Assembly: GCA_003695455.1 (NCBI GenBank)
Contig: RFJF01000115.1
Coordinates: 1-10,500 of the forward strand
Reading direction: 5' to 3'
DNA: 10,500 nt
Source of the DNA: Chloroflexota bacterium
GTDB lineage: Bacteria; Chloroflexota; Anaerolineae; 4572-78; J111
Shown here: in pieces, positions 1 through 10,053 of the stretch
How positions within the stretch are numbered: the stretch's first letter is position 1
Layout of the letters: every line of letters begins with the position of its first letter
Notes under the pieces: model-generated
What the model was told of the DNA's origin: nothing
Seen by the model: the letters and a program-made list of their open reading frames with translations, nothing else
The model's database searches: none
Translations under genes and position numbers: made by a program

Positions 1-1740
1 GGGCGGCAGGCATTGCGAGATGCACTGTACGCCACCAGCGGATTTGACGGCATCACAGGCAAGCTGAGCTGCAATGAAATGGGCGACTGCGCAGACCCGC
101 AGATTGCCGTGAACCAGATACAAAACGGCGAATATGTGCCCATCTACCAAAGCGGTAAAATGATTGGCGAAATGGCCGGCGGCGAATCTGGCGGTGGCGA
201 AGCCATGGCCGATGATGAAGCCTGCGCTTACGGCGGCCTGTTCAAGAGCATTGAAGCCGTTGACGATATGACCGTCAAATTCAGCCTCTGCTCGCCGGAC
301 GTGGCCTTCCCCTCAAAAGTGGCCTTTACCGCGCTGAACATTCACCCCAGCGAATACCTGGAAGCCACCGGCGGCACCGGCGACATTCTGGAAAAACCGA
401 TTGGCACCGGCCCGTACGAACTGGTTGAATGGAACAAAGGCGACAGCATTGTCTTCAAGCGCAATGAAAACTACTGGGGCGAAAAGGCCAAAACCGAAAA
501 CCTCATCTTCCGCTGGAGCTCCGAAGGCGCGCAGCGCCTGCTGGAACTGCAAAGCGGTGCGGTTGACGGCATTGATAACCCCACCCCCGATGACTTTGCC
601 GTCATCGAAGGCGACGACTCGCTGGCGCTCTACCCGCGCGAAGGTCTGAACATTTTCTACCTGGGTATGACCAACACCCACCCGCCGTTTGACAACGAAC
701 TGGTGCGCCAGGCCATTGCCATTGGCATTGACCGGCAGCGGATTGTTGATAACTTCTACCCGGCCGGGTCGGTGGTAGCCAGCCACTTTACCCCGTGCGC
801 CATCCCCGGCGGCTGCGAAGGCCCCGAATGGCCGGCATACGACCTGGAAAAAGCCAAACAAATGTTGGCCGATGCCGGATACCCGGATGGATTTGACACC
901 ACCATTGCCTACCGCGATGTGGTGCGCAGCTACCTGCCGGAACCGGGCGTGGTGGCCCAGGATATTCAGGCCCAGTTGAAAGATTTGGGCATCAACGCCG
1001 AAATCACCGTGATGGAAAGCGGCGCGTTTCTGGATGCCGCCGACCGCGGCGAACTGACCGGCTTCCACATGCTGGGCTGGGGCGCCGACTACCCGGATCA
1101 GACCAACTTCCTTGATTTCCACTTTGGCGCCGGCGCCAGCGACCAGTTTGGCGAAGGCTTCCCGGACATCCACGAAACCCTGGCCGAAGCCGCCAGCCTG
1201 CCGGATCAGGCAGAACGGAATAAACTGTACGCCAAAGCCAACGAACTGCTGGCCCAGCACGTACCGATGATTCCGATTGCCCACGGCGGTAGTGGCACGG
1301 CCTTCAAAGCCACAGTAGAAGGGGCGCACGCCTCTCCGCTGGGCAACGAATACTTTGCCGTGATGGAAGTGCCGGGCCAGGATACCCTGGTCTGGATGCA
1401 GAACGCCGAACCGATCAGCGCCTACTGCGCCGACGAAACCGACGGCGAAACCTTCCGCCTGTGCGAACAGGTACAGGAAAGCCTGCTGGGTTACGAAGTG
1501 GGTGGCACGGCAGTAGTGCCCGCGCTGGCCGAAAGCTACGACGTGAACGACGACCTGACCGAGTGGACCTTCCACTTGCGCCCCGGCGTCACCTTCCACG
1601 ATGGCAGCGCCCTGGATGCCCAGGACGTGGTAACCAGCTACATGGCCCAGTGGGATGCGGCCAACCCGCTCCACACCGGCCGTGACGGCAACTTTACCTA
1701 CTTCAGCGCCTTCTTTGGCGGCTTCAAAAACGCCGAATAA
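1..1740 (+). CDS. ABC transporter substrate-binding protein, 5'-truncated; LivK-type tail joined to a circularly permuted family-5 (DppA/OppA-like) domain
   Basis: The frame is open from base 1, so the true start and any signal peptide lie outside the window. Residue numbers count from the TTG at 13. Residues ~1-46 (YATSGFDGITGKL, then NEMGDCADP, then NGEYVPI) match the C-terminal end of branched-chain amino acid binding proteins; E. coli LivJ has the same ending around TWDEKGDLKGF. A Gly/Glu-rich linker (~47-68) follows. From ~78 the protein is family 5: IEAVDDMTVKF, the PIGTGPYELVEW motif (129-140), NENYWG (151-156), VRQAIAIGIDR (231-241), and the LGWGADYPD region (354-362). Residues ~457-572 are the part that normally comes first in DppA: VVPALAES, TFHLRPGVTFHDG, DAQDVV, then NP-H. 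Eight cysteines form plausible exported disulfides. The role is extracytoplasmic capture of peptide or similar solute for permeases like those at 2087-4126. The exact ligand cannot be read. Codon use looks uniform across the join. Confidence 0.88.
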   Translation, partial: GRQALRDALYATSGFDGITGKLSCNEMGDCADPQIAVNQIQNGEYVPIYQSGKMIGEMAGGESGGGEAMADDEACAYGGLFKSIEAVDDMTVKFSLCSPDVAFPSKVAFTALNIHPSEYLEATGGTGDILEKPIGTGPYELVEWNKGDSIVFKRNENYWGEKAKTENLIFRWSSEGAQRLLELQSGAVDGIDNPTPDDFAVIEGDDSLALYPREGLNIFYLGMTNTHPPFDNELVRQAIAIGIDRQRIVDNFYPAGSVVASHFTPCAIPGGCEGPEWPAYDLEKAKQMLADAGYPDGFDTTIAYRDVVRSYLPEPGVVAQDIQAQLKDLGINAEITVMESGAFLDAADRGELTGFHMLGWGADYPDQTNFLDFHFGAGASDQFGEGFPDIHETLAEAASLPDQAERNKLYAKANELLAQHVPMIPIAHGGSGTAFKATVEGAHASPLGNEYFAVMEVPGQDTLVWMQNAEPISAYCADETDGETFRLCEQVQESLLGYEVGGTAVVPALAESYDVNDDLTEWTFHLRPGVTFHDGSALDAQDVVTSYMAQWDAANPLHTGRDGNFTYFSAFFGGFKNAE

Positions 1741-1786
1741 ATCAACGCTGGTCTATTCGCTAAACGCGAATGTTTGATGTAAAATG

Positions 1787-1816
1787 GGCGGGGTGATTTT
1801 CACCCCGCCTTTTTTT
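1787..1816 (+). terminator. Rho-independent terminator after the substrate-binding protein gene
   Basis: A perfect 10-bp GC-rich stem (GGCGGGGTGA at 1787-1796 with TCACCCCGCC at 1800-1809) closes a 3-nt loop and is followed at once by seven T residues (1810-1816). It lies 46 bp after the stop codon. A terminator between a binding protein and its permeases is a common way to keep the binding protein in excess, with the permease genes expressed by read-through or from a second promoter. Confidence 0.93.
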
Positions 1817-2086: not shown

Positions 2087-3169
2087 ATGGGCCAATACAT
2101 TGCGCGTCGAACGATGCTGGCCGTTCCGGTGCTGATTGGCATTTTGTTTGTCACCTTTGCCCTGGCGCGGCTCATCCCCGGCGACCCTTGCCGGGCCGTC
2201 CTTGGTGAGCGCGCCACCGATGAAATTTGCGATGCGTTTATGGAACGCAACGGTCTCAATGAACCTATTCCGGTTCAATTTGGCGTGTATCTCAAACAGA
2301 TTCTGATTGATTTTGACCTGGGCGAGTCGTTTCGCTTTGGCCGCCCGGTAATGGATATCATTGTTGAACGACTGCCGGTAACGGTTGAACTGGCCTTTTC
2401 AGCCATGATATTTGCCACTTTTTTTGGGATAATCTTTGGGGTAGTGTCGGCCTACTGGCATAACTCTTCTATTGACGTGGCAACCATGATGGGGGCCAAT
2501 CTGGGGGTGTCGGTTCCGGTATTTGTGCTGGGGTTGTTACTGCAATATGTTTTTGCCCTGCTGCTCAAAGATACGTTTCTGGCTTTGCCGCCATCGGGGC
2601 GCATCAACCCGGTTATTCCCAACCCCCCGTTTTACGAGGTCTGGGGCTGGACCGTGGAAGAAGGAACCGGCTGGCACACTTTTCTGGAATTCCTTTCAAA
2701 CTTTGTCTTTTTTAACACGTTCATTACCTTCAATTGGGAAGCATTTTGGGATGCCGTGCAGCACATGATTTTGCCGGCGGTAGCGGTGGGAACCATTCCG
2801 CTGGCCATTATTGCCCGCATCACCCGCTCCAGCTTGCTCGAAGTGCTCAGTCTCGATTACATCCGCACGGCCCGGGCCAAAGGGCTGGCAGAAGTGGGGG
2901 TGGTGATGCGCCACGGCCTTTCTAATGCGCTGCTGCCGGTGGTCACCATTGTGGGCTTGCAGCTTGGCTTTTTGCTGGCCGGCGCCATTCTCACCGAAAC
3001 TATTTTCAACCTGACCGGGTTGGGCAAAACCCTGTTCGATGCCATTACCTCGCGGGACTACATTATTGTGCAGGGCTTCACCCTGATTGTGGCCGTGAGT
3101 TTTGTGCTCATCAACCTGCTGGTTGATATTTCTTACGCATTTTTAGACCCGCGAATCCGTTTGAGTTAG
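2087..3169 (+). CDS. ABC transporter permease, DppB/OppB type
   Basis: This 360-residue inner-membrane subunit of a peptide-type (DppBC/OppBC) importer would form half of the translocation channel. TM1 lies at ~9-29, followed by the family signature LIPGDP (29-34). The main hydrophobic segments are at ~97-123, 138-160, 228-245, 283-305 and 331-352. The EAA-like cytoplasmic loop that docks on the ATPase is DYIRTARAKG (257-266), ending in NALLP (280-284). The protein ends in LDPRIRLS, as is typical of the family. The ATG is set by GAGGAG at 2075-2080, 6 bp upstream. The only two cysteines seen, C35 and C48, both fall in the extracytoplasmic stretch after TM1, where typical members lack them. 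The DppC-type gene starts 9 bp after its stop, so the two are surely cotranscribed. Substrate specificity cannot be deduced; the generic symbol is withheld for that reason. Confidence 0.95.
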   Translation: MGQYIARRTMLAVPVLIGILFVTFALARLIPGDPCRAVLGERATDEICDAFMERNGLNEPIPVQFGVYLKQILIDFDLGESFRFGRPVMDIIVERLPVTVELAFSAMIFATFFGIIFGVVSAYWHNSSIDVATMMGANLGVSVPVFVLGLLLQYVFALLLKDTFLALPPSGRINPVIPNPPFYEVWGWTVEEGTGWHTFLEFLSNFVFFNTFITFNWEAFWDAVQHMILPAVAVGTIPLAIIARITRSSLLEVLSLDYIRTARAKGLAEVGVVMRHGLSNALLPVVTIVGLQLGFLLAGAILTETIFNLTGLGKTLFDAITSRDYIIVQGFTLIVAVSFVLINLLVDISYAFLDPRIRLS

Positions 3170-3178
3170 GGAGAAATT

Positions 3179-4126
3179 ATGGCAACCGCTGATTCAACAC
3201 TGTCTAACGCACCGGCTCTGCTCAAAACCAAAGAACCGAGCAGCCTCTTTAAAGACGCCTGGCGTCACCTTATTCAAAAACGGTCGGCTGTGGTGGGCAT
3301 GACTATTTTGGCAATTCTGGCCGTGGTAGCTGTACTGGCCCCGGTGATTGCCCCGTTTGACCCGGAGCAGCAACTTATTGGTAAAGAGGACGGCATCAAA
3401 AAACGCTCCGGCCCGTGCATTCACATGTTGGGTTGTCCGGAAGAACAGCCGCAACACATTTTTGGCGTTGACGCCAATTTCAGAGATTTTTTCAGCCGGG
3501 TGCTGTACGGCGCACGACTGTCGCTGGTAGTGGGCTTTGCCTCGGTGACCATTGCTATTGTCACCGGCACTATTCTGGGGTCGCTGGCCGGTTTTTTGGG
3601 GGGATGGGTTGATAACCTGATTATGCGCCTCATGGACGTGCTGCTGGCTTTTCCGGCCCTGATTCTGGCAATTGCCATTGTTACGGTGCTGGGGCCGGGG
3701 CTGATTAACGCCCTGATTGCCATCAGCATTGTCACCATTCCGGCGTATGCCCGCGTTATCCGGTCCAGCGTGCTCACGGTCAAAGAGCAGGATTACGTGC
3801 TGGCGGGTCGTTCGATTGGCGTGCCGCAGTTCCGCATTTTAACCCGCGATGTGCTGCCCAACGCCATCACTCCGTTGATTGTGCAGGGCACGCTGGGCAT
3901 TGGCACGGCCATTGTTGAAGTGGCTGCGCTATCATTTTTGGGGCTGGGCGCGCAACCCCCCACCCCGGAATGGGGGCTAATGATCAGCGCCGAGCGCAAC
4001 CAGATTTTTACCGCACCGTATCTGGTGTTAATTCCCGGTATTTGCATTGCGCTGGTGGTGCTGGGCTTTAACCTGCTGGGCGATGGGTTGCAGGATGCGC
4101 TCAACCCGCGCCTCAATCGCCGTTAA
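3179..4126 (+). CDS. ABC transporter permease, DppC/OppC type
   Basis: This 315-residue partner of the preceding permease completes the membrane channel. It has a hydrophilic N-terminal tail (~1-35), with KRSAVVGM leading into TM1 (~37-59), then a long external loop (~60-105). The loop contains a cysteine pair, C80 and C86, before the HIFGVDANFRD region (93-103), which is the family's HPFGTDxxGRD site in variant form. Five further hydrophobic segments follow from ~114. The EAA-type docking loop is DYVLAGRSIG (205-214) and ends in DVLPN (224-228). LSFLGLGAQPPTPEWG (251-266) and the end GDGLQDALNPRL are highly typical. An AGGGAGA ribosome-binding site overlaps the intergenic gap after the upstream stop. 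No ATPase genes follow: a terminator comes next, so the nucleotide-binding subunits must be encoded elsewhere or upstream. Confidence 0.95.
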   Translation: MATADSTLSNAPALLKTKEPSSLFKDAWRHLIQKRSAVVGMTILAILAVVAVLAPVIAPFDPEQQLIGKEDGIKKRSGPCIHMLGCPEEQPQHIFGVDANFRDFFSRVLYGARLSLVVGFASVTIAIVTGTILGSLAGFLGGWVDNLIMRLMDVLLAFPALILAIAIVTVLGPGLINALIAISIVTIPAYARVIRSSVLTVKEQDYVLAGRSIGVPQFRILTRDVLPNAITPLIVQGTLGIGTAIVEVAALSFLGLGAQPPTPEWGLMISAERNQIFTAPYLVLIPGICIALVVLGFNLLGDGLQDALNPRLNRR

Positions 4127-4353: not shown

Positions 4354-4370
4354 AAGGAGACAAAACTGTG
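4354..4370 (+). promoter_or_regulatory. Ribosome-binding site that fixes a GTG start
   Basis: AAGGAGA (4354-4360) lies 8 bp (from GGAG) before GTG at 4368-4370. The codons that follow, KLGLQIVQF, are the conserved first beta-strand of the family. No in-frame ATG lies nearby that would preserve it, so GTG is the start. Confidence 0.85.
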
Positions 4371-5261
4371 AAACTCGGTTTGCAAATTGTGCAGTTCAAC
4401 TGGCCCGGAACGCCGGAAAACACCGGCCCTAAACTGGCCGAGATGGTCCGCGCCGCCGATGAGGCCGGCTTTGCCAGCATTTGGGTGATGGACCATTTTT
4501 TCCAGATGGATATGCCGCAGATGGGGCTGAATCCGCACCAGCCTATGTTCGATGGCTACCTGGCGCTGGGCTTTATTGCCGCCAACACCCAGCGGGCGCA
4601 AATTGGAACAATGGTCACCGGAGTCAACTACCGCCACCCGGGGCATCTGGTTAAAATTGTGACCGGGCTGGATGTGCTTTCCGGGGGGCGGGCCATTTTT
4701 GGCATTGGCGCCGGCTGGTACGAACGCGAAGCGCGCGGGCTGGGCTTTCCGTTTCCGCCGCTGAAAGAACGGTTTGAGCAGTTGGAAGAAACGCTGCAAA
4801 TTGCCCAACAGATGTGGTCCGGGCAGGTGACGCCGTACCACGGCAAACATTTTAAGCTGGAAGAACCCATCAACCTGCCGCTGCCGCTGGCGCGACCCCG
4901 CCCACCCATTTTAATTGGCGGCTCCGGCGAAAAGAAGACCCTGCGGTTGGTGGCCCGGTACGCCGACGCCTGCAACCTGTTTGCCTACGGCGAAGCTGCC
5001 GACACCATTCCCCACAAGCTTGACGTGCTCAAACGTCACTGTGAAGATGTGGGCCGGGATTACGCCGAAATCGAACGGACTGCGCTGGGGTTGGTTTATC
5101 TGGGCCAGGGCGGTATGTCTGTGCCGGATGTGATTGGCCTGTGCCGCAAGCTGGCCGGCATGGGCATTCAGCAGTTTATTTTCAGCATGCCCAATGTTCA
5201 CGATATTTCACCCATCGAAACCATTGGCCGCGAGGTTATCCCCGCGGTGGCTGAATTTTAA
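4368..5261 (+). CDS. LLM-class (luciferase-like) F420-dependent oxidoreductase, Rv1855c-like family
   Basis: This 297-residue cytoplasmic TIM-barrel enzyme belongs to the bacterial luciferase-like superfamily, which uses reduced F420 or FMN. It starts with KLGLQIVQFNWPG. DEAGFASIWVMDHFFQ (31-46) is the second strand and helix with the conserved Asp-His. GTMVTGVNYRHPGHL (80-94) and LDVLSGGRAIFGIGAGW (101-117) are cofactor-site segments. ERFEQLEETLQI (134-145) and RPPILIGGSGEKKTLRLVARYAD (178-200) are hallmark stretches. The last two regions closely resemble the family named after mycobacterial Rv1855c, whose members are predicted to be F420-dependent but whose substrates are largely unknown. 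Cofactor choice is inferred from family resemblance; FMN use is possible. The gene has its own promoter and terminator and appears monocistronic, with no functional link to the neighbouring transporter shown by spacing. Confidence 0.9.
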   Translation: MKLGLQIVQFNWPGTPENTGPKLAEMVRAADEAGFASIWVMDHFFQMDMPQMGLNPHQPMFDGYLALGFIAANTQRAQIGTMVTGVNYRHPGHLVKIVTGLDVLSGGRAIFGIGAGWYEREARGLGFPFPPLKERFEQLEETLQIAQQMWSGQVTPYHGKHFKLEEPINLPLPLARPRPPILIGGSGEKKTLRLVARYADACNLFAYGEAADTIPHKLDVLKRHCEDVGRDYAEIERTALGLVYLGQGGMSVPDVIGLCRKLAGMGIQQFIFSMPNVHDISPIETIGREVIPAVAEF

Positions 5262-5290
5262 CCCAACCGATACGCCCGTACCCGTACATC

Positions 5291-5329
5291 AAAAAAGGGA
5301 CGCACGATAGTGCATCCCTTTTATTTTTT
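5291..5329. terminator. Bidirectional terminator between the convergent LLM and ppk genes
   Basis: Arms 5293-5305 and 5310-5322 pair with one C-A mismatch around a GATA loop (inner GCAC/GTGC, outer AAAAGGGA/TCCCTTTT on the other side of the mismatch). An A-run on the left (5291-5296) and a T-run on the right (5319-5329, broken by one A) give a U-tail in both directions. The plus-strand gene ends at 5261 and the minus-strand gene at 5341, so it serves both. Confidence 0.9.
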
Positions 5330-5340
5330 CAGCCGTCTGC

Positions 5341-7599
5341 CTACAGCCGAATGGCTTTTTTGGTGCGTTTGGCCGCCTGTTTCATCAAAATTTTATGAAA
5401 GTCGCGTTCATCATCCGGGTCCGTTGGGCAGCGCAGGGTGTAGGTTCCGTCCGCCGCCAAATCCCAGGCCAGCCGGTTGTCGGTGAGCGCGTTTTCCAAA
5501 ATTTCAATGAGCCGTTGTTGCAGGGCCGGTTCCTCAATGGGGGCAATCAGTTCAACCCGTTCATCCAGGTTGCGCCCGCGCCAGTCTGCGCTGCCAATGT
5601 AGGTTACAGGTTGGCCGTTGTTGTGAAAGTGGTAAATGCGGTCGTGCTCCAGAAAGCGGCCCAAAATGCTGATAATGCGAATGTTATCGCTGTAGCCGGG
5701 CAGGCCGGGCCGCAGCCGGGTGTGTCCACGGATAATCAGGTCAATCTTCACCCCGGCCTGCGAGGCCTGATAGAGCCGCCGGATAATTTTAACATCATCC
5801 AGCGCGTTCATTTTGGCAATGATGCGGCCGTTGCCGTGCTGTTGCTGCATTTCAATTTCACGGTCAATGAGCTGGTTAAAGGTTTTGCGCATATTCTGCG
5901 GCGCAACCATCACTTTTTTGTACTGCTGGTTGAGCGCGTAGCCGGTGAGGTAGTGGAACAGGTTCACAATATCGTGGCCCAGTTCAGGGTTGCAGGTGAG
6001 CAGCCCCAGGTCGGTGTAGAGGCGGGCGGTTTTGGGGTGGTAGTTGCCGGTGCCAATGTGGCAGTAGGTTTTCAGGCCGTCGCTTTCTCTGCGAACAATC
6101 AGCGTGGCTTTGGTGTGGGTTTTTAAACCCACCAGCCCGTAAGCCACGTGAACGCCGGAGTTTTCCAACATTCTGGCCCATTCAATATTGTTGGCTTCGT
6201 CAAAGCGGGCCTTGACTTCAACCAGCACAGCCACCTGTTTGCCCTGTTCGGCGGCCTGCACCAGCGCCTTGACCACCGGTGATTCTGCCGAGGTGCGGTA
6301 CAGGGTTTGTTTGATAGCCAGCACGTGCGGGTCTGCGGCGGCTTCTTCAATGAGTTGCAGCACGCTGGCGGTAAAGGATTCATACGGATGGTGAACCAGA
6401 ATATCGCCCTGCCGGATGATGGCAAAAATGTCCCGGGTGTCTTTGGTTGCACCCTCGTTGAGCAGCCGGTCCGGAATGACCGGCGACCAGGGCGGGTATT
6501 TCAAATCCGGCAGGTTGAGGTCTGCAATCTGAAAACAGCCGGTTAAATCCAGCAGGCCGTCAACGCGGTACACGTCGGCGTTTTCCAGCCCCAGTTCCCG
6601 CATGAGCAGTTGGCACTCTTCCTGCGGCATATCGTGCGCTACTTCAAGCCGCACCACCGAGGCAAAACGGCGCTCGCGAAGTTCTTCTGAAATCATTGAC
6701 AACAGGTCCAGCGCTTCTTCTTCATCGCGGCGGATATCGGCGTTGCGGGTTACGCGGAAGGGGTTGACGCTTTCAATTTGCAGGCCGGGAAAAAGCTCAT
6801 CTACGTGATGGGCAATCAGTTGTTCGATAGGTAAAAAATGAGACGGCAGCCGGCCACTGCCATCCGGCACGGGTAAAAATCTGGGATGGTTGGGTGGCAC
6901 CTTGAGCCGGGCAAAGTGCGTGGTTCCGAGTGTGGGGTGGCGCATAATAATGGCCAGTGAGAGGCTGAGATTTGAGATAAACGGGAACGGGTGGCCCGGG
7001 TCAACCGTGAGTGGCGTGAGAATGGGATAAATCTGATCCCGGAAGTAGGCGTGCATGCCCTCTTTCTGGGTGTTGTTCAGCGCGTCGTAATCCAGAATGT
7101 GGATGTTGGCCTGCCGGCTGATGGCCGGTTTGAGCGTGTGTTCCCAGGTGCGGGTCATGGTTTGGTGCATGGTTTTAATAGCCTGCCGCAGCAGGTTGAG
7201 TTGCTGGGTAGGGGTTCGGCCATCCGGCGAAAGGGAACGCACCCCGGCCGCTTTTTGCCGTTTCAACCCGCCCACGCGCTTCTGCACAAATTCATCCAGG
7301 TTGCTGGCAGTTATGGCAACAAAGCGCACCCGTTCCAGTAGCGGGGTGCGTTCGTCGAGCGCCAAATGCAGCACGCGCCAGTTAAAATCAATCCAGCTCA
7401 ATTCCATGTTGAAATAGAGCGACGGGTGCTTTAAGTTTGAACCGTCCGGAACGGGTTGGGGAGATACGGCTTTGGGGATGGGAACCCGGTGTGACTCTGG
7501 TTTTTGAGCGGGTGGCTGGCCTTCGACGGGTGGCCCGGTGGAATTGTCTGCTGCCGGCGGGGGGGCAACAGCTACTTCAACAGCGTCCTGCTCCGGCAT
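5341..7599 (-). CDS. ppk1: Polyphosphate kinase 1
   Basis: PPK1 reversibly transfers the gamma-phosphate of ATP onto a growing inorganic polyphosphate chain. At 752 residues it is a little longer than the usual ~690-720 because of a ~57-residue Pro/Ala/Glu-rich leader. The N domain begins at LYFNMELSWIDFNWRVL (61-77) and ASNLDEF (98-104). The middle domain includes HPFPFISNLSLSLA (203-216). QTLYRT (431-436) supplies the conserved Arg of the nucleotide site, and VEVKARFDEANNIEWA (460-475) is near-invariant. KTHTK (493-497) gives H495, equivalent to the autophosphorylated His435 of E. coli. FLEHDRIYHF (649-658) gives H652, equivalent to His592. GSADWRGRNLDERVE (669-683) closes the second phospholipase-D-like domain. 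All key residues are present. The ATG at 7599 has GAGG 8 bp upstream. A start at M65 would lose the leader but would cut into the conserved LYFNMELSW block, so 7599 is preferred. Confidence 0.96.
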   Translation of the reverse strand: MPEQDAVEVAVAPPPAADNSTGPPVEGQPPAQKPESHRVPIPKAVSPQPVPDGSNLKHPSLYFNMELSWIDFNWRVLHLALDERTPLLERVRFVAITASNLDEFVQKRVGGLKRQKAAGVRSLSPDGRTPTQQLNLLRQAIKTMHQTMTRTWEHTLKPAISRQANIHILDYDALNNTQKEGMHAYFRDQIYPILTPLTVDPGHPFPFISNLSLSLAIIMRHPTLGTTHFARLKVPPNHPRFLPVPDGSGRLPSHFLPIEQLIAHHVDELFPGLQIESVNPFRVTRNADIRRDEEEALDLLSMISEELRERRFASVVRLEVAHDMPQEECQLLMRELGLENADVYRVDGLLDLTGCFQIADLNLPDLKYPPWSPVIPDRLLNEGATKDTRDIFAIIRQGDILVHHPYESFTASVLQLIEEAAADPHVLAIKQTLYRTSAESPVVKALVQAAEQGKQVAVLVEVKARFDEANNIEWARMLENSGVHVAYGLVGLKTHTKATLIVRRESDGLKTYCHIGTGNYHPKTARLYTDLGLLTCNPELGHDIVNLFHYLTGYALNQQYKKVMVAPQNMRKTFNQLIDREIEMQQQHGNGRIIAKMNALDDVKIIRRLYQASQAGVKIDLIIRGHTRLRPGLPGYSDNIRIISILGRFLEHDRIYHFHNNGQPVTYIGSADWRGRNLDERVELIAPIEEPALQQRLIEILENALTDNRLAWDLAADGTYTLRCPTDPDDERDFHKILMKQAAKRTKKAIRL

Positions 7600-7640
7600 A
7601 ATTTGAACCTCAACCTGACTGATTGCGGATATTATTCATC

Positions 7641-7669
7641 AGCATAAAGCAGTTCAGGGCCAGAGTCAA
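7641..7669 (-). promoter_or_regulatory. Candidate sigma70-type promoter for ppk1
   Basis: Read on the minus strand, TTGACT (7669-7664, 5 of 6) is followed after 17 bp by TATGCT (7646-7641, 4 of 6). The expected start of transcription is ~7634, giving a short leader before the ATG at 7599. The position between the small membrane protein gene and ppk1 suggests that ppk1 can be expressed on its own. Confidence 0.5.
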
Positions 7670-7676
7670 GTACTTT

Positions 7677-7744
7677 ACAATGGATTAGGGAGCAGGGAGT
7701 AAGGATGAGGCAAAATAACCTTGTTTCTAACCCTTATCCATTGT
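7677..7744. repeat. Fold-back element with 13-14 bp inverted ends and heptamer units
   Basis: CAATGGATTAGGG (7678-7690) and CCCTTATCCATTG (7731-7743) are inverted copies with one mismatch, extended by one A-T pair on the outside, with a 40-bp interior. The left half is a run of GG-initial heptamers; the right half contains CC-final heptamers (7726-7732 and 7733-7739). There is no T-tail, so termination is not indicated. The element lies between the small gene and the ppk1 promoter. It may be a non-autonomous repeat or arise simply from oppositely oriented heptamer runs. Confidence 0.6.
7682..7709. repeat. Degenerate heptamer array, four units, upstream of ppk1
   Basis: Four consecutive 7-bp units on the plus strand all start with GGA and fit GGAKNAR: GGATTAG, GGAGCAG, then the units at 7696-7702 (GGAGTAA) and 7703-7709 (GGATGAG). 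On the strand of ppk1 the units read as C-rich and end in TCC, the same orientation as the arrays upstream of the permease and fbp genes. Confidence 0.65.
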
Positions 7745-7763
7745 TTGCAAATGGGGCACGGTG

Positions 7764-7919
7764 CTATTCGGCCGGCACAACCTGAATGATTCCGGGCTGT
7801 GATAGCTGGTTGGTGTGAGATGCGGCGTTGGTTTCTTCAAATACCATGGCCAGCAAAATGACAGAAATGATAACGGCAGCCCCAAAAAATTTTACAGCGT
7901 ATTCACCACGGCGACTCAT
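7764..7919 (-). CDS. Small hypothetical membrane protein, 51 residues
   Basis: I do not recognise the family. The protein starts MSRRGEYAVKFFG, has a single hydrophobic segment at ~11-27 (FFGAAVIISVILLAMVF), then a short polar tail rich in Asn, Gln, Ser and Pro (28-51), ending VVPAE. The RR/K residues before the segment predict an N-in, C-out topology; an uncleaved anchor or a very short secreted peptide are both possible. A strong ribosome-binding site, AAGGAG (7931-7926 on the minus strand), lies 6 bp before the ATG, and this is the best evidence that it is real. It lies between fbp and ppk1 in the same direction, 169 bp after the fbp stop and 164 bp before the ppk1 start. A perfect 16-bp palindrome sits just upstream. 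An opposing plus-strand frame over the same bases has no ribosome-binding site. Confidence 0.68.
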   Translation of the reverse strand: MSRRGEYAVKFFGAAVIISVILLAMVFEETNAASHTNQLSQPGIIQVVPAE

Positions 7920-7944
7920 GCTCAACTCCTTGATGATTTGGATT

Positions 7945-7960
7945 GACTATTTAAATAGTC
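7945..7960. promoter_or_regulatory. Perfect 16-bp palindrome upstream of the small membrane protein gene
   Basis: GACTATTTAAATAGTC has 8-bp arms without a spacer, centred ~33 bp upstream of the ATG at 7919. Its AT-rich core could overlap a -10 region (TTGCGT at 7977-7972, then 17 bp, then TTAAAT at 7954-7949), but that promoter match is weak. A dimeric-repressor operator is possible; no regulator can be named. Confidence 0.4.
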
Positions 7961-8088
7961 GGCGGCGAGTTACGCAAAATGATACTCAGGCTGAAAATGC
8001 AGGGAGAATCGCAACAAGAATCCATCGGATTGGTAAAATTTTAAGGTAATTCTCTCCTTCAAGGTTTGGCTGTGGCAGTGAACAGCAG

Positions 8089-10053
8089 CTAACCTTCTTT
8101 GATGTAGCCTTCGCGGAAGGCTTGCAGCAGGGCCTGCAAATCACTCACGTCTTGCTGTAATTCTTTGCCCAGGTCTGTGTCTTTTACCCGAATGCGGGTG
8201 TAATTTTTCTCAAGAATCTGGGTTTCGGAATGAATATCAAGTTCTTCGCTGATGGCTTTTTCTGTGGACTCAAATGGATGGTGCGAAGCCAGCAACAACC
8301 CGTACGAGTTGAACACCAGCGTGTACCCGGCAATGCCGGTTTGAGTCTGGTATGCCTTTGAAAATCCACCGTCAATGACCACCAGCTTGCCGCCGGCCTT
8401 GACCGGGCTTTCGCCTTTTTTGACTTTAACCGGCACGTGCCCGTTAATGATGTGTCCTTTGCCGTTGGGCAGGCCAAAGGCTTTGAGAATTTCTGTGGCT
8501 ACATTGGCCCGGTCACGGTAGGTGTAGTAGGCGTTGGTAATTTCCTTGTGGGTTGATTTGTCATCAATAAAATAGCGTTCAAAGGTTGCCATTTTATCTT
8601 TGCCAAACAGCGGCGAGTTGGCTCCGCACCACAGGTACCACATCATATCCAGCCCTTCCAGCTTTTGCGGCGAACCTTCCGGGGCAAAGTAGGCTTGCCG
8701 CACCAGCCGTTCCACCCGGTCAAGCATGGCGCGCGGTCCAAGTTGCTGCCCGTTGACCGTGAAATTCTTGATTTTGCCATCGTCGGTCATCAAAATACAG
8801 CCGTGGTACAGCAGATTACCGTTGTAAACCAGATACATGCTGCCTTTGGAGTAGAGAAAGCGCACATGCCGCTGCAGCCGTTCGCTGTGCATAAATGAGA
8901 GGCGCAGTTTTTTTACTACAGAGTGTTCAGCGTCAGTGAGGGCAAAGGGGTTTTTGGGGTTGATGGTGGGAAAATAGGTGTCGTTGAGGGGATAGGTGGT
9001 ATCGCCAATTTGAATGGTGCCGTTTTTGAAGTCAATTTTGTCCAGCAGCAGGCGGTCGTTCATTTCATATTCTGCCCGGCGATGGATGATTTCGGCTTCA
9101 ATTTTAAATTGAATGATGGCAATGGCTTTGTGCATTTTTGCCATCAACTTTACTTCGTTGTTGTCAAATTCACGCTCACCCGAAAGTTTGGGCATGAATT
9201 GCAGGCACGCGTCATCGCCGTAGGTTTCCATGGCAAAGGTAGCCAACGGCAGCAGACTGATGGCATAACCATCTTCAATGGTGGTCATATTTGAGTAGCG
9301 CAGCCCCACCCGAATAACGTTGGCAATACAGGCATCGCTGCCGGCGGCGGCGCCCATCCACAGGATATCGTGGTTGCCCCACTGAAAATCCAGCGAGTGG
9401 TAATCCATAAGTGTGTCCATGATAATGTGCGCGCCGGGGCCGCGATCGTACACATCGCCAATCAGGTGCAAGTGGTCAATGTTGAGCCGTTGAATCAAGT
9501 ACGACAGGGCGATAATAAACGGCGCGGCGCGGCCGGTATCAATAATGGTGTCCACAATGGATTTGTAATATTCCTGGCGGTTGATAATGCTTTCCTGCTC
9601 GTGGAGTAGTTCTTCAATGACGTAGGCAAAATCATCGGGCAGGGCTTTGCGCACTTTGGAGCGCGTGTACTTGGAGGAGACCACCCGGCAAATTTTAATC
9701 AGACGAAACAGGGTAATTCTGAACCATTCCCGTTGGTCTTCCACATCACGGAGCAGCATGGGCAGTTTGCGTTCCGGGTAGTAGATGAGCGTGGCCAGCG
9801 CCCGTTTTTCTTTGGCCAGCAGGGTATCGGCAAAGGTTTCTTCAATTTTGCGTTTGATGGAGCCGGAGCCGTTTTTGAGAACGTGCAGAAAGGCCTCGTA
9901 CTCGCCGTGAACGTCAGACAGGAAATGCTCGGTGGCTTTGGGCAGGTTGAGAATGGCGTTGAGGTTGATGATTTCTGTGGATGCGGCCTGAATGTTGGGG
10001 TACTGCCGGGCCAGCAATTTGAGGTACCGGAAATCTTGTTCCGCATTTGTCAT
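8089..10053 (-). CDS. fbp: Fructose-1,6-bisphosphatase, class III (Firmicutes type)
   Basis: This cytoplasmic gluconeogenic enzyme hydrolyses fructose 1,6-bisphosphate to fructose 6-phosphate and phosphate. At 654 residues it has full family length (~640-670). It belongs to the calcineurin-like metallophosphatase fold rather than the classical FBPase fold. Metal-site motifs appear in order: SDVHGEYEAF (46-55, Asp47 and His49), GDVYDRG (199-205), GNHD (226-229), and INGHVPVK (536-543). Family-specific stretches include KNGSGSIKRKIEE (60-72), NLLYHGCI (413-420), VIDGGFSKAYQ (559-569), and ASHHPFES (589-596). All catalytic motifs are intact. The ATG at 10053 has AAAGGAGA 8-9 bp upstream. A good promoter lies at 10166-10194 and its leader carries a palindrome and heptamer array. 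No T-tailed terminator is visible after the stop, so read-through into the small gene downstream is possible. By eye the gene is slightly less GC-rich than ppk1. Confidence 0.97.
   Translation of the reverse strand: MTNAEQDFRYLKLLARQYPNIQAASTEIINLNAILNLPKATEHFLSDVHGEYEAFLHVLKNGSGSIKRKIEETFADTLLAKEKRALATLIYYPERKLPMLLRDVEDQREWFRITLFRLIKICRVVSSKYTRSKVRKALPDDFAYVIEELLHEQESIINRQEYYKSIVDTIIDTGRAAPFIIALSYLIQRLNIDHLHLIGDVYDRGPGAHIIMDTLMDYHSLDFQWGNHDILWMGAAAGSDACIANVIRVGLRYSNMTTIEDGYAISLLPLATFAMETYGDDACLQFMPKLSGEREFDNNEVKLMAKMHKAIAIIQFKIEAEIIHRRAEYEMNDRLLLDKIDFKNGTIQIGDTTYPLNDTYFPTINPKNPFALTDAEHSVVKKLRLSFMHSERLQRHVRFLYSKGSMYLVYNGNLLYHGCILMTDDGKIKNFTVNGQQLGPRAMLDRVERLVRQAYFAPEGSPQKLEGLDMMWYLWCGANSPLFGKDKMATFERYFIDDKSTHKEITNAYYTYRDRANVATEILKAFGLPNGKGHIINGHVPVKVKKGESPVKAGGKLVVIDGGFSKAYQTQTGIAGYTLVFNSYGLLLASHHPFESTEKAISEELDIHSETQILEKNYTRIRVKDTDLGKELQQDVSDLQALLQAFREGYIKEG

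Follow-up and report, generated by a model that had tools for sequence, protein, structure and literature searches.

A circularly permuted SBP_bac_5 domain in a probable Dpp-type receptor of a Chloroflexota bacterium

Substrate-binding proteins of the SBP_bac_5 (SBP5) family follow a familiar order of parts, as in Escherichia coli DppA, and the first gene of the stretch studied here departs from it. That stretch, the window, is 10,500 nucleotides long (positions 1 to 10,500 of contig RFJF01000115.1, here C411, of the Chloroflexota assembly GCA_003695455.1), and an initial annotation made from the sequence alone had proposed that the SBP5 domain encoded in its first open reading frame (ORF, 1-1740) is circularly permuted. 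Is the rotated order genuine, could such a protein still serve as a receptor and how might it have arisen? We conclude that the gene very probably encodes a working lipoprotein receptor of a Dpp-type (PepT) ATP-binding cassette (ABC) importer, in which the SBP_bac_5 domain has undergone circular permutation in nature. The analysis confirmed this topology, which is new for an otherwise known receptor family, is conserved and is joined by two further independent cases.

Rotated order of the window gene and its relatives

The Pfam profile SBP_bac_5 (PF00496) matched the ORF at 292.7 bits overall, passing the curated cut-off of 32.4, in two stretches of 230.7 and 61.5 bits. Residues 71-379 correspond to profile positions 50-365 and residues 505-556 (nucleotides 1513-1668) to profile positions 2-53, so that the profile order is not linear. 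The same arrangement emerged against E. coli DppA (1dpe), where residues 10-384 of the translation of window 211-1737 matched chain residues 123-503 and residues 422-500 of the same query matched chain residues 33-117; the score against the DppA equivalog NF043070 (NCBIfam), 225.4 bits, lies below its cut-off of 1005. In the Pfam, PDB and DppA comparisons alike the pieces failed to align in the normal order, which bears out the proposed circular permutation, and every block named in the initial annotation was found once and in rotated order (block search in the ORF, Pfam and DppA alignment). Only its residue numbers needed correction, being about four too low: SPLGNEYFAVMEV occupies residues 445-457, TLVWMQNAEP 462-471, VVPALAES 505-512 and YFSAFFGG 567-574. 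With both stretches scoring over the cut-off and the order retained in 98 distinct relatives, the rotated-order signal stands above chance.

On the plus strand, the permuted core thus begins with the SBP5 middle and C-terminal part (208..1371, from Pfam and the DppA alignment), continues through the joint PGQD that leads from the old C-terminus to the old N-terminus (1372..1383, from the sequence and the DppA alignment) and ends with the SBP5 N-terminal segment relocated to the C-terminus (1384..1737, residues 462-579, from the Pfam and DppA matches given above). The distance from a GNE-type motif to the first strand of the N-segment is 11 or 12 residues in the cores readable by motif search (77 of 98).

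These relatives were gathered from 61 near genomes and from GTDB contigs (the best 80 of 438 candidates encoding a relative). Matches were counted as collinear if they began at or before query position 20 and ended at or beyond position 480, and the 111 such matches left 98 distinct cores after identical cores were removed; L026 (internal stop), L031 and L037 (partial) and L096 and L097 (contig start) are among those excluded by this rule or unclassified. The 3,779 distinct ORFs of the collected loci include 109 in M-N order (middle part, then N-segment) and 20 in canonical order. The impression recorded in the initial annotation that similar proteins occur in Chloroflexota proved well founded: by our own reading, at least 29 of the 61 near genomes had a row across the whole rotated core (query position 81 or earlier to 574 or later), and a 169-residue query spanning the joint gave a row from query position 7 or earlier to 159 or later in at least 56 of the 400 Chloroflexota genomes sampled (counted by eye). 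Joint-spanning rows were also found in six of 396 genomes, seed included, sampled around an Acidimicrobiales bin, and the order was verified in L162 and L163. Each of three divergent permuted SBP5 genes (L158, L159, L160) has a canonical SBP5 neighbour encoded on the other strand, and two ORFs of ~285 residues (L166:1924-2784, +; L167:2022-2870, -) comprise the SBP5 N-segment and the start of the middle region only, in L166 also by Pfam.

Misjoined contigs could mimic a rotation, and the source is a fragmented metagenome-assembled genome of 929 contigs, 87% complete, in which nucleotide 1 of the window is the first base of C411. A second contig of this genome, C30, begins at the same LivJ-type sequence, which is 94% identical in DNA to window 1-184, and since both contigs begin at this repeat, it is the repeat that broke the assembly here. 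The break, however, falls outside the core, and the rotated order recurs in the 98 distinct cores and in isolate and single-contig genomes (G034, G050, G053). Because single-contig genomes hold this order too, it is not an assembly fault, and misjoining, refuted for the core, has next to no probability left. On C30 the LivJ tail is fused to an NMT1/THI5-like domain (L121 3842-5080, -).

As the window starts with the first base of its contig, ORF 1-1740 is open at the 5' end and its true start lies outside the assembly. Residues 1 to ~57 (1..171, +) appear to be the C-terminal tail of a LivJ-type (Peripla_BP_6) domain, the remainder of which would lie beyond the contig start. The 85-residue start of the window gave no Pfam match by itself, but the full-length relatives of G011 and G008 align from query residue 1 at 77-78% identity, and Peripla_BP_6 lies upstream in such ORFs, as in the homologous full-length L040. 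A low-complexity linker in the GGESGGGEAMAD region follows (172..207, +; from the sequence, the boundary being placed by eye from the alignment to relatives). Judged by its first ~57 residues, the window gene is to all appearances of the Peripla_BP_6-fused kind, a feature that, like the open 5' end, had escaped the initial annotation.

The open end would also accommodate a canonical N-segment upstream, in which case the gene would be a partial tandem duplicate and no permutant; fused tandem canonical SBP5 domains do occur in this genome (L120, described below). Such a segment, raised in the initial annotation as the mark of a tandem protein, was found in none of the relatives whose 5' end is closed by an in-frame upstream stop (86 of 98 cores, the 12 open at the 5' end being left out), when the N-segment hidden Markov model (HMM) was run on their N-terminal extensions at E 10, and the close relatives at 77-78% identity hold a LivJ domain there instead. 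A possible second N-segment in L044 was dismissed as a weak match (E 5.9 only). We therefore regard an upstream N-segment as very improbable and a true permutation as the better account. The extensions measure at most 220 residues in 66 of the 86 relatives and more than 280 in the other 20; that of Bellilinea caldifistulae (L113) consists of a signal peptide and a linker.

Predicted fold, clamp residues and permease genes

An AlphaFold2 (AF2) model of the rotated chain reached a predicted local distance difference test score (pLDDT) of 95 and a predicted template modelling score (pTM) of 0.91. This model is confidently DppA-like and matches the solved cluster C members 1dpe and 3tpa, so that the comparison with DppA suggested in the initial annotation favours a conserved, though predicted, fold; the VIA-align rows are confined to model residues 5-391 and have no bearing on the fold of the last 120 residues. 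The model of a full LivJ-fused relative had a mean pLDDT of 74.8 and a pTM of 0.55, and for this reason its placement of the domains is not usable.

The residues that hold the ligand in DppA are kept. According to a published study of DppABCDF, the dipeptide is bound at its carboxyl end by DppA R383 and at its amino end by D436 (mature 355 and 408, respectively), and these two residues are contacted by E41 and R42 of the DppB scoop (PMC12136057). By alignment to DppA, Arg309 of the window protein (925..927, +) corresponds to mature Arg355 (precursor R383), with the role of peptide-carboxylate clamp, and Asp363 (1087..1089, +) to mature Asp408 (precursor D436), the peptide-amino clamp. Their equivalents, R240 and D294, are invariant in all 64 aligned cores, the structure alignment having taken in 64 of the 98.

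Downstream of the receptor gene and on the same strand lie a DppB-type permease gene (2087..3169, +), with E41/R42 at the scoop-loop positions, and a DppC-type permease gene (3179..4126, +); their best NCBIfam matches, to DppB/Opp and GsiD/DppC families respectively, are below the curated cut-offs. Among the 61 loci with at least 2.5 kb of downstream sequence, 58 have this pair behind the receptor gene in the same orientation, and DppB has E at position 41 and one of R, K or H at position 42 in all 98 locus rows (some genomes being represented twice). Given the conserved clamp, the adjacent DppB and DppC genes and the kept scoop residues, we infer a peptide ligand and docking to a PepT importer. 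The permuted domain might instead have become structural or sensory, with uptake through other fused heads, and some fused copies do lack a neighbouring permease (L142, L143, L123). The invariant clamp, the operon arrangement and the retention of basic scoop residues argue against such a role, which we hold to be improbable.

A peptide receptor of permuted order would be built and work as follows. The old C-terminal strand is linked by ~4 residues to the old N-terminal strand, the new chain ends lie in a loop at about DppA residue 120 and the chain should adopt the usual Venus flytrap fold of cluster C. Arg309 and Asp363 would clamp both charged ends of a small peptide, and the conserved DppB scoop would mediate its transfer to DppB/DppC. 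At its new place the N-terminus would bear the lipid anchor and, in the lineage of the window, a LivJ-type binding domain as well.

Several observations weigh against this account. What places the moved N-segment in the model is pLDDT and pTM, the segment lying outside the reach of sequential aligners. The window's own gene lacks its 5' end, so that the absence of SBP5 sequence upstream would there follow from the relatives only. Adjacent DppB and DppC genes are wanting in three of the 61 loci (L044, L069, L123), and no DppD or DppF gene adjoins the window operon, six oligo_HPY matches being located on other contigs (C718, C825, C575). Finally, the family is patchy near the window: among the matches listed, the one genome of the same genus that was covered, G001, has the LivJ-like end only, with no core at E 1e-30, and four genomes of the same family (G004, G005, G007, G009) have no full core.

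Elsewhere in the window, a gene for an LLM-class F420-dependent oxidoreductase (4368-5261, +; TIGR03560, over its cut-off) follows dppC, where dppD/F would stand. A hairpin resembling an intrinsic terminator lies between the receptor gene and dppB (1786..1810, +; 11 pairs, 8 of them GC, then a T run); the scan returned eight sites against 4.9 in shuffles, and this one is a consensus match only. In L040 a Uma2-family gene (7308-8201, +) is placed between the fused receptor and dppB.

Origin of the permutation and two further cuts

A tandem duplication that then lost its two ends, as the initial annotation proposed, could plausibly have produced the permutation. The same genome encodes a 1338-residue ORF (L120 625-4638, -) with two tandem canonical SBP5 domains behind a long N-terminal region that is AAA/TPR-like by eye, an illustration solely that the proposed kind of intermediate can exist. 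Two contigs of this genome were considered as sources of other permutants and rejected, C385 having a canonical N-segment behind a LysM-like domain (by eye) at a contig edge and C455 a tandem of canonical SBP5.

The C-terminal segment might alternatively have been captured from a different SBP gene, which is conceivable for an old event; capture from another gene was likewise weighed for the permuted receptor TpMglB-2 by its authors (PMC4990184). Here, however, the top canonical scorers on the N-segment HMM are also among the top on the middle-part HMM (L148, L149, L150, L154, L155, L156, L161, L164). Because the two parts find their best matches in largely overlapping sets of canonical proteins, rearrangement of one gene is favoured, and capture appears unlikely. 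The same authors suggest a link between permutation and membrane anchoring (PMC4990184). Anchoring alone was rejected as an explanation in the present family, as a loose lipobox pattern, applied to permuted ORFs only, had no match in 11 of the 86.

Two further cuts were found. In type 2, represented by L153, a 572-residue lipoprotein of G033, residues 176-569 correspond to Bacillus subtilis OppA 17-416 and residues 69-158 to OppA 419-507, placing the cut at about OppA 417. Type 3, cut at about OppA 360, was found in four genomes that belong to a single genus and are each one contig (G097, G239, G299, G313); in L170, residues 234-573 correspond to OppA 19-356 and residues 68-195 to OppA 366-493. 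L170, L174 and L175 begin with a signal resembling that of twin-arginine translocation (Tat), and L169 is also of type 3. The type 2 gene (L153 / L180:7374-9071, -) adjoins genes for DppB and two ATPases, and the neighbours of both kinds, type 3 being represented by L178:7052-8719 (+), include DppB-type permease and oligo_HPY ATPase genes.

When 64 sequences, either canonical or de-permuted, were placed in a tree, the 39 rows with the window's cut (type 1; 34 of the 98 cores plus five divergent sequences) grouped together except for canonical L154, which fell beside basal L036 (96/71), and a single type 1 clade was not rejected (approximately unbiased test, p-AU 0.311). Type 2 was sister to the canonical protein L171 (100/99). 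The topology tests, whose groups were named after the sequences had been seen and in which several rows are long branches, rejected both a clade uniting types 2 and 3 (p-AU 0.0003) and one uniting all permuted rows, that is, a common origin of types 1-3. From these sequence comparisons, the SBP5 rotation appears to have more than one origin.

Fused binding domains and comparison with known systems

Other binding domains are carried by 22 of the 29 type 1 proteins scanned, a proportion that is not a frequency because the 29 were chosen mainly for long N-termini. The 22 comprise proteins with Peripla_BP_6 (four), two Peripla_BP_6 domains (one), SBP_bac_3 (13), a heme-binding piece plus SBP_bac_3 (three) and Peripla_BP_6 plus SBP_bac_3 (one, L033). 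At the N-termini of L047, L018 and L019 the heme-binding piece (PF09098 match) precedes SBP_bac_3 and the permuted SBP5. A single ancestral SBP_bac_3 fusion was rejected, as fused and stand-alone domains interleave, with at least four changes on a tree of 27.

The operons of these fusions are composite. In that of L047/L145 the fused receptor is preceded by genes for a Peripla_BP_6 protein, two BPD_transp_2 permeases and two ATPases, and is followed by those for DppC, a BPD_transp_1 permease and an ATPase. L183 and L186 encode, by eye, a receptor, DppB, DppC, an amino-acid-type permease and one ATPase, the L183 receptor (4621-8016, -) being a 1132-residue protein of LivJ-type, SBP_bac_3 and permuted SBP5 parts. 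One might speculate, and we rate this as doubtful, that at least three independent cluster C permutations in Chloroflexota freed the N-terminus for a modular receptor stacking LivJ-type, SBP_bac_3 and heme-binding pieces on one anchor, and that such a multi-headed receptor would serve Dpp-type and amino-acid-type permeases with one GlnQ-like ATPase gene in sight, the motor perhaps being shared. How several importers share receptors and motors is a testable question that the fused multi-class receptors pose.

Few ABC receptors that are permuted by nature have been published. A widespread permuted SBP5, together with two independent cuts in one phylum, would allow a direct test of whether topology is tuned to the site of the anchor or fused partner. 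For annotation, profile searches split permuted proteins, and the family name conceals the altered topology. We found no description of a permuted SBP5 in the open-licence literature, where the one natural permuted ABC receptor found was TpMglB-2, and none of the PDB matches listed (60 of 103) was collinear over the joint.

Compared with DppA/HbpA-type proteins (PF00496, cluster C; 1dpe, 3tpa), the window family shares the predicted fold, ~29-34% identity, the clamp Arg and Asp and an operon with DppB and DppC, but is rotated, ends at about DppA residue 120 and in a subset bears extra N-terminal binding domains. TpMglB-2 (Tp0684) is likewise a natural permutation of an ABC lipoprotein receptor with its function kept, although it is a glucose-binding protein of Type I/cluster B ('Type Ic/Cluster Bc'), of another fold class and cut (PMC4990184), whereas the permuted domain here is SBP_bac_5/cluster C. 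GlnPQ (PMC8025302) also has several substrate-binding domains on one chain, but these are two related domains fused to the permease, whereas here Peripla_BP_6, SBP_bac_3 and SBP_bac_5 are found on one lipoprotein apart from the permeases.
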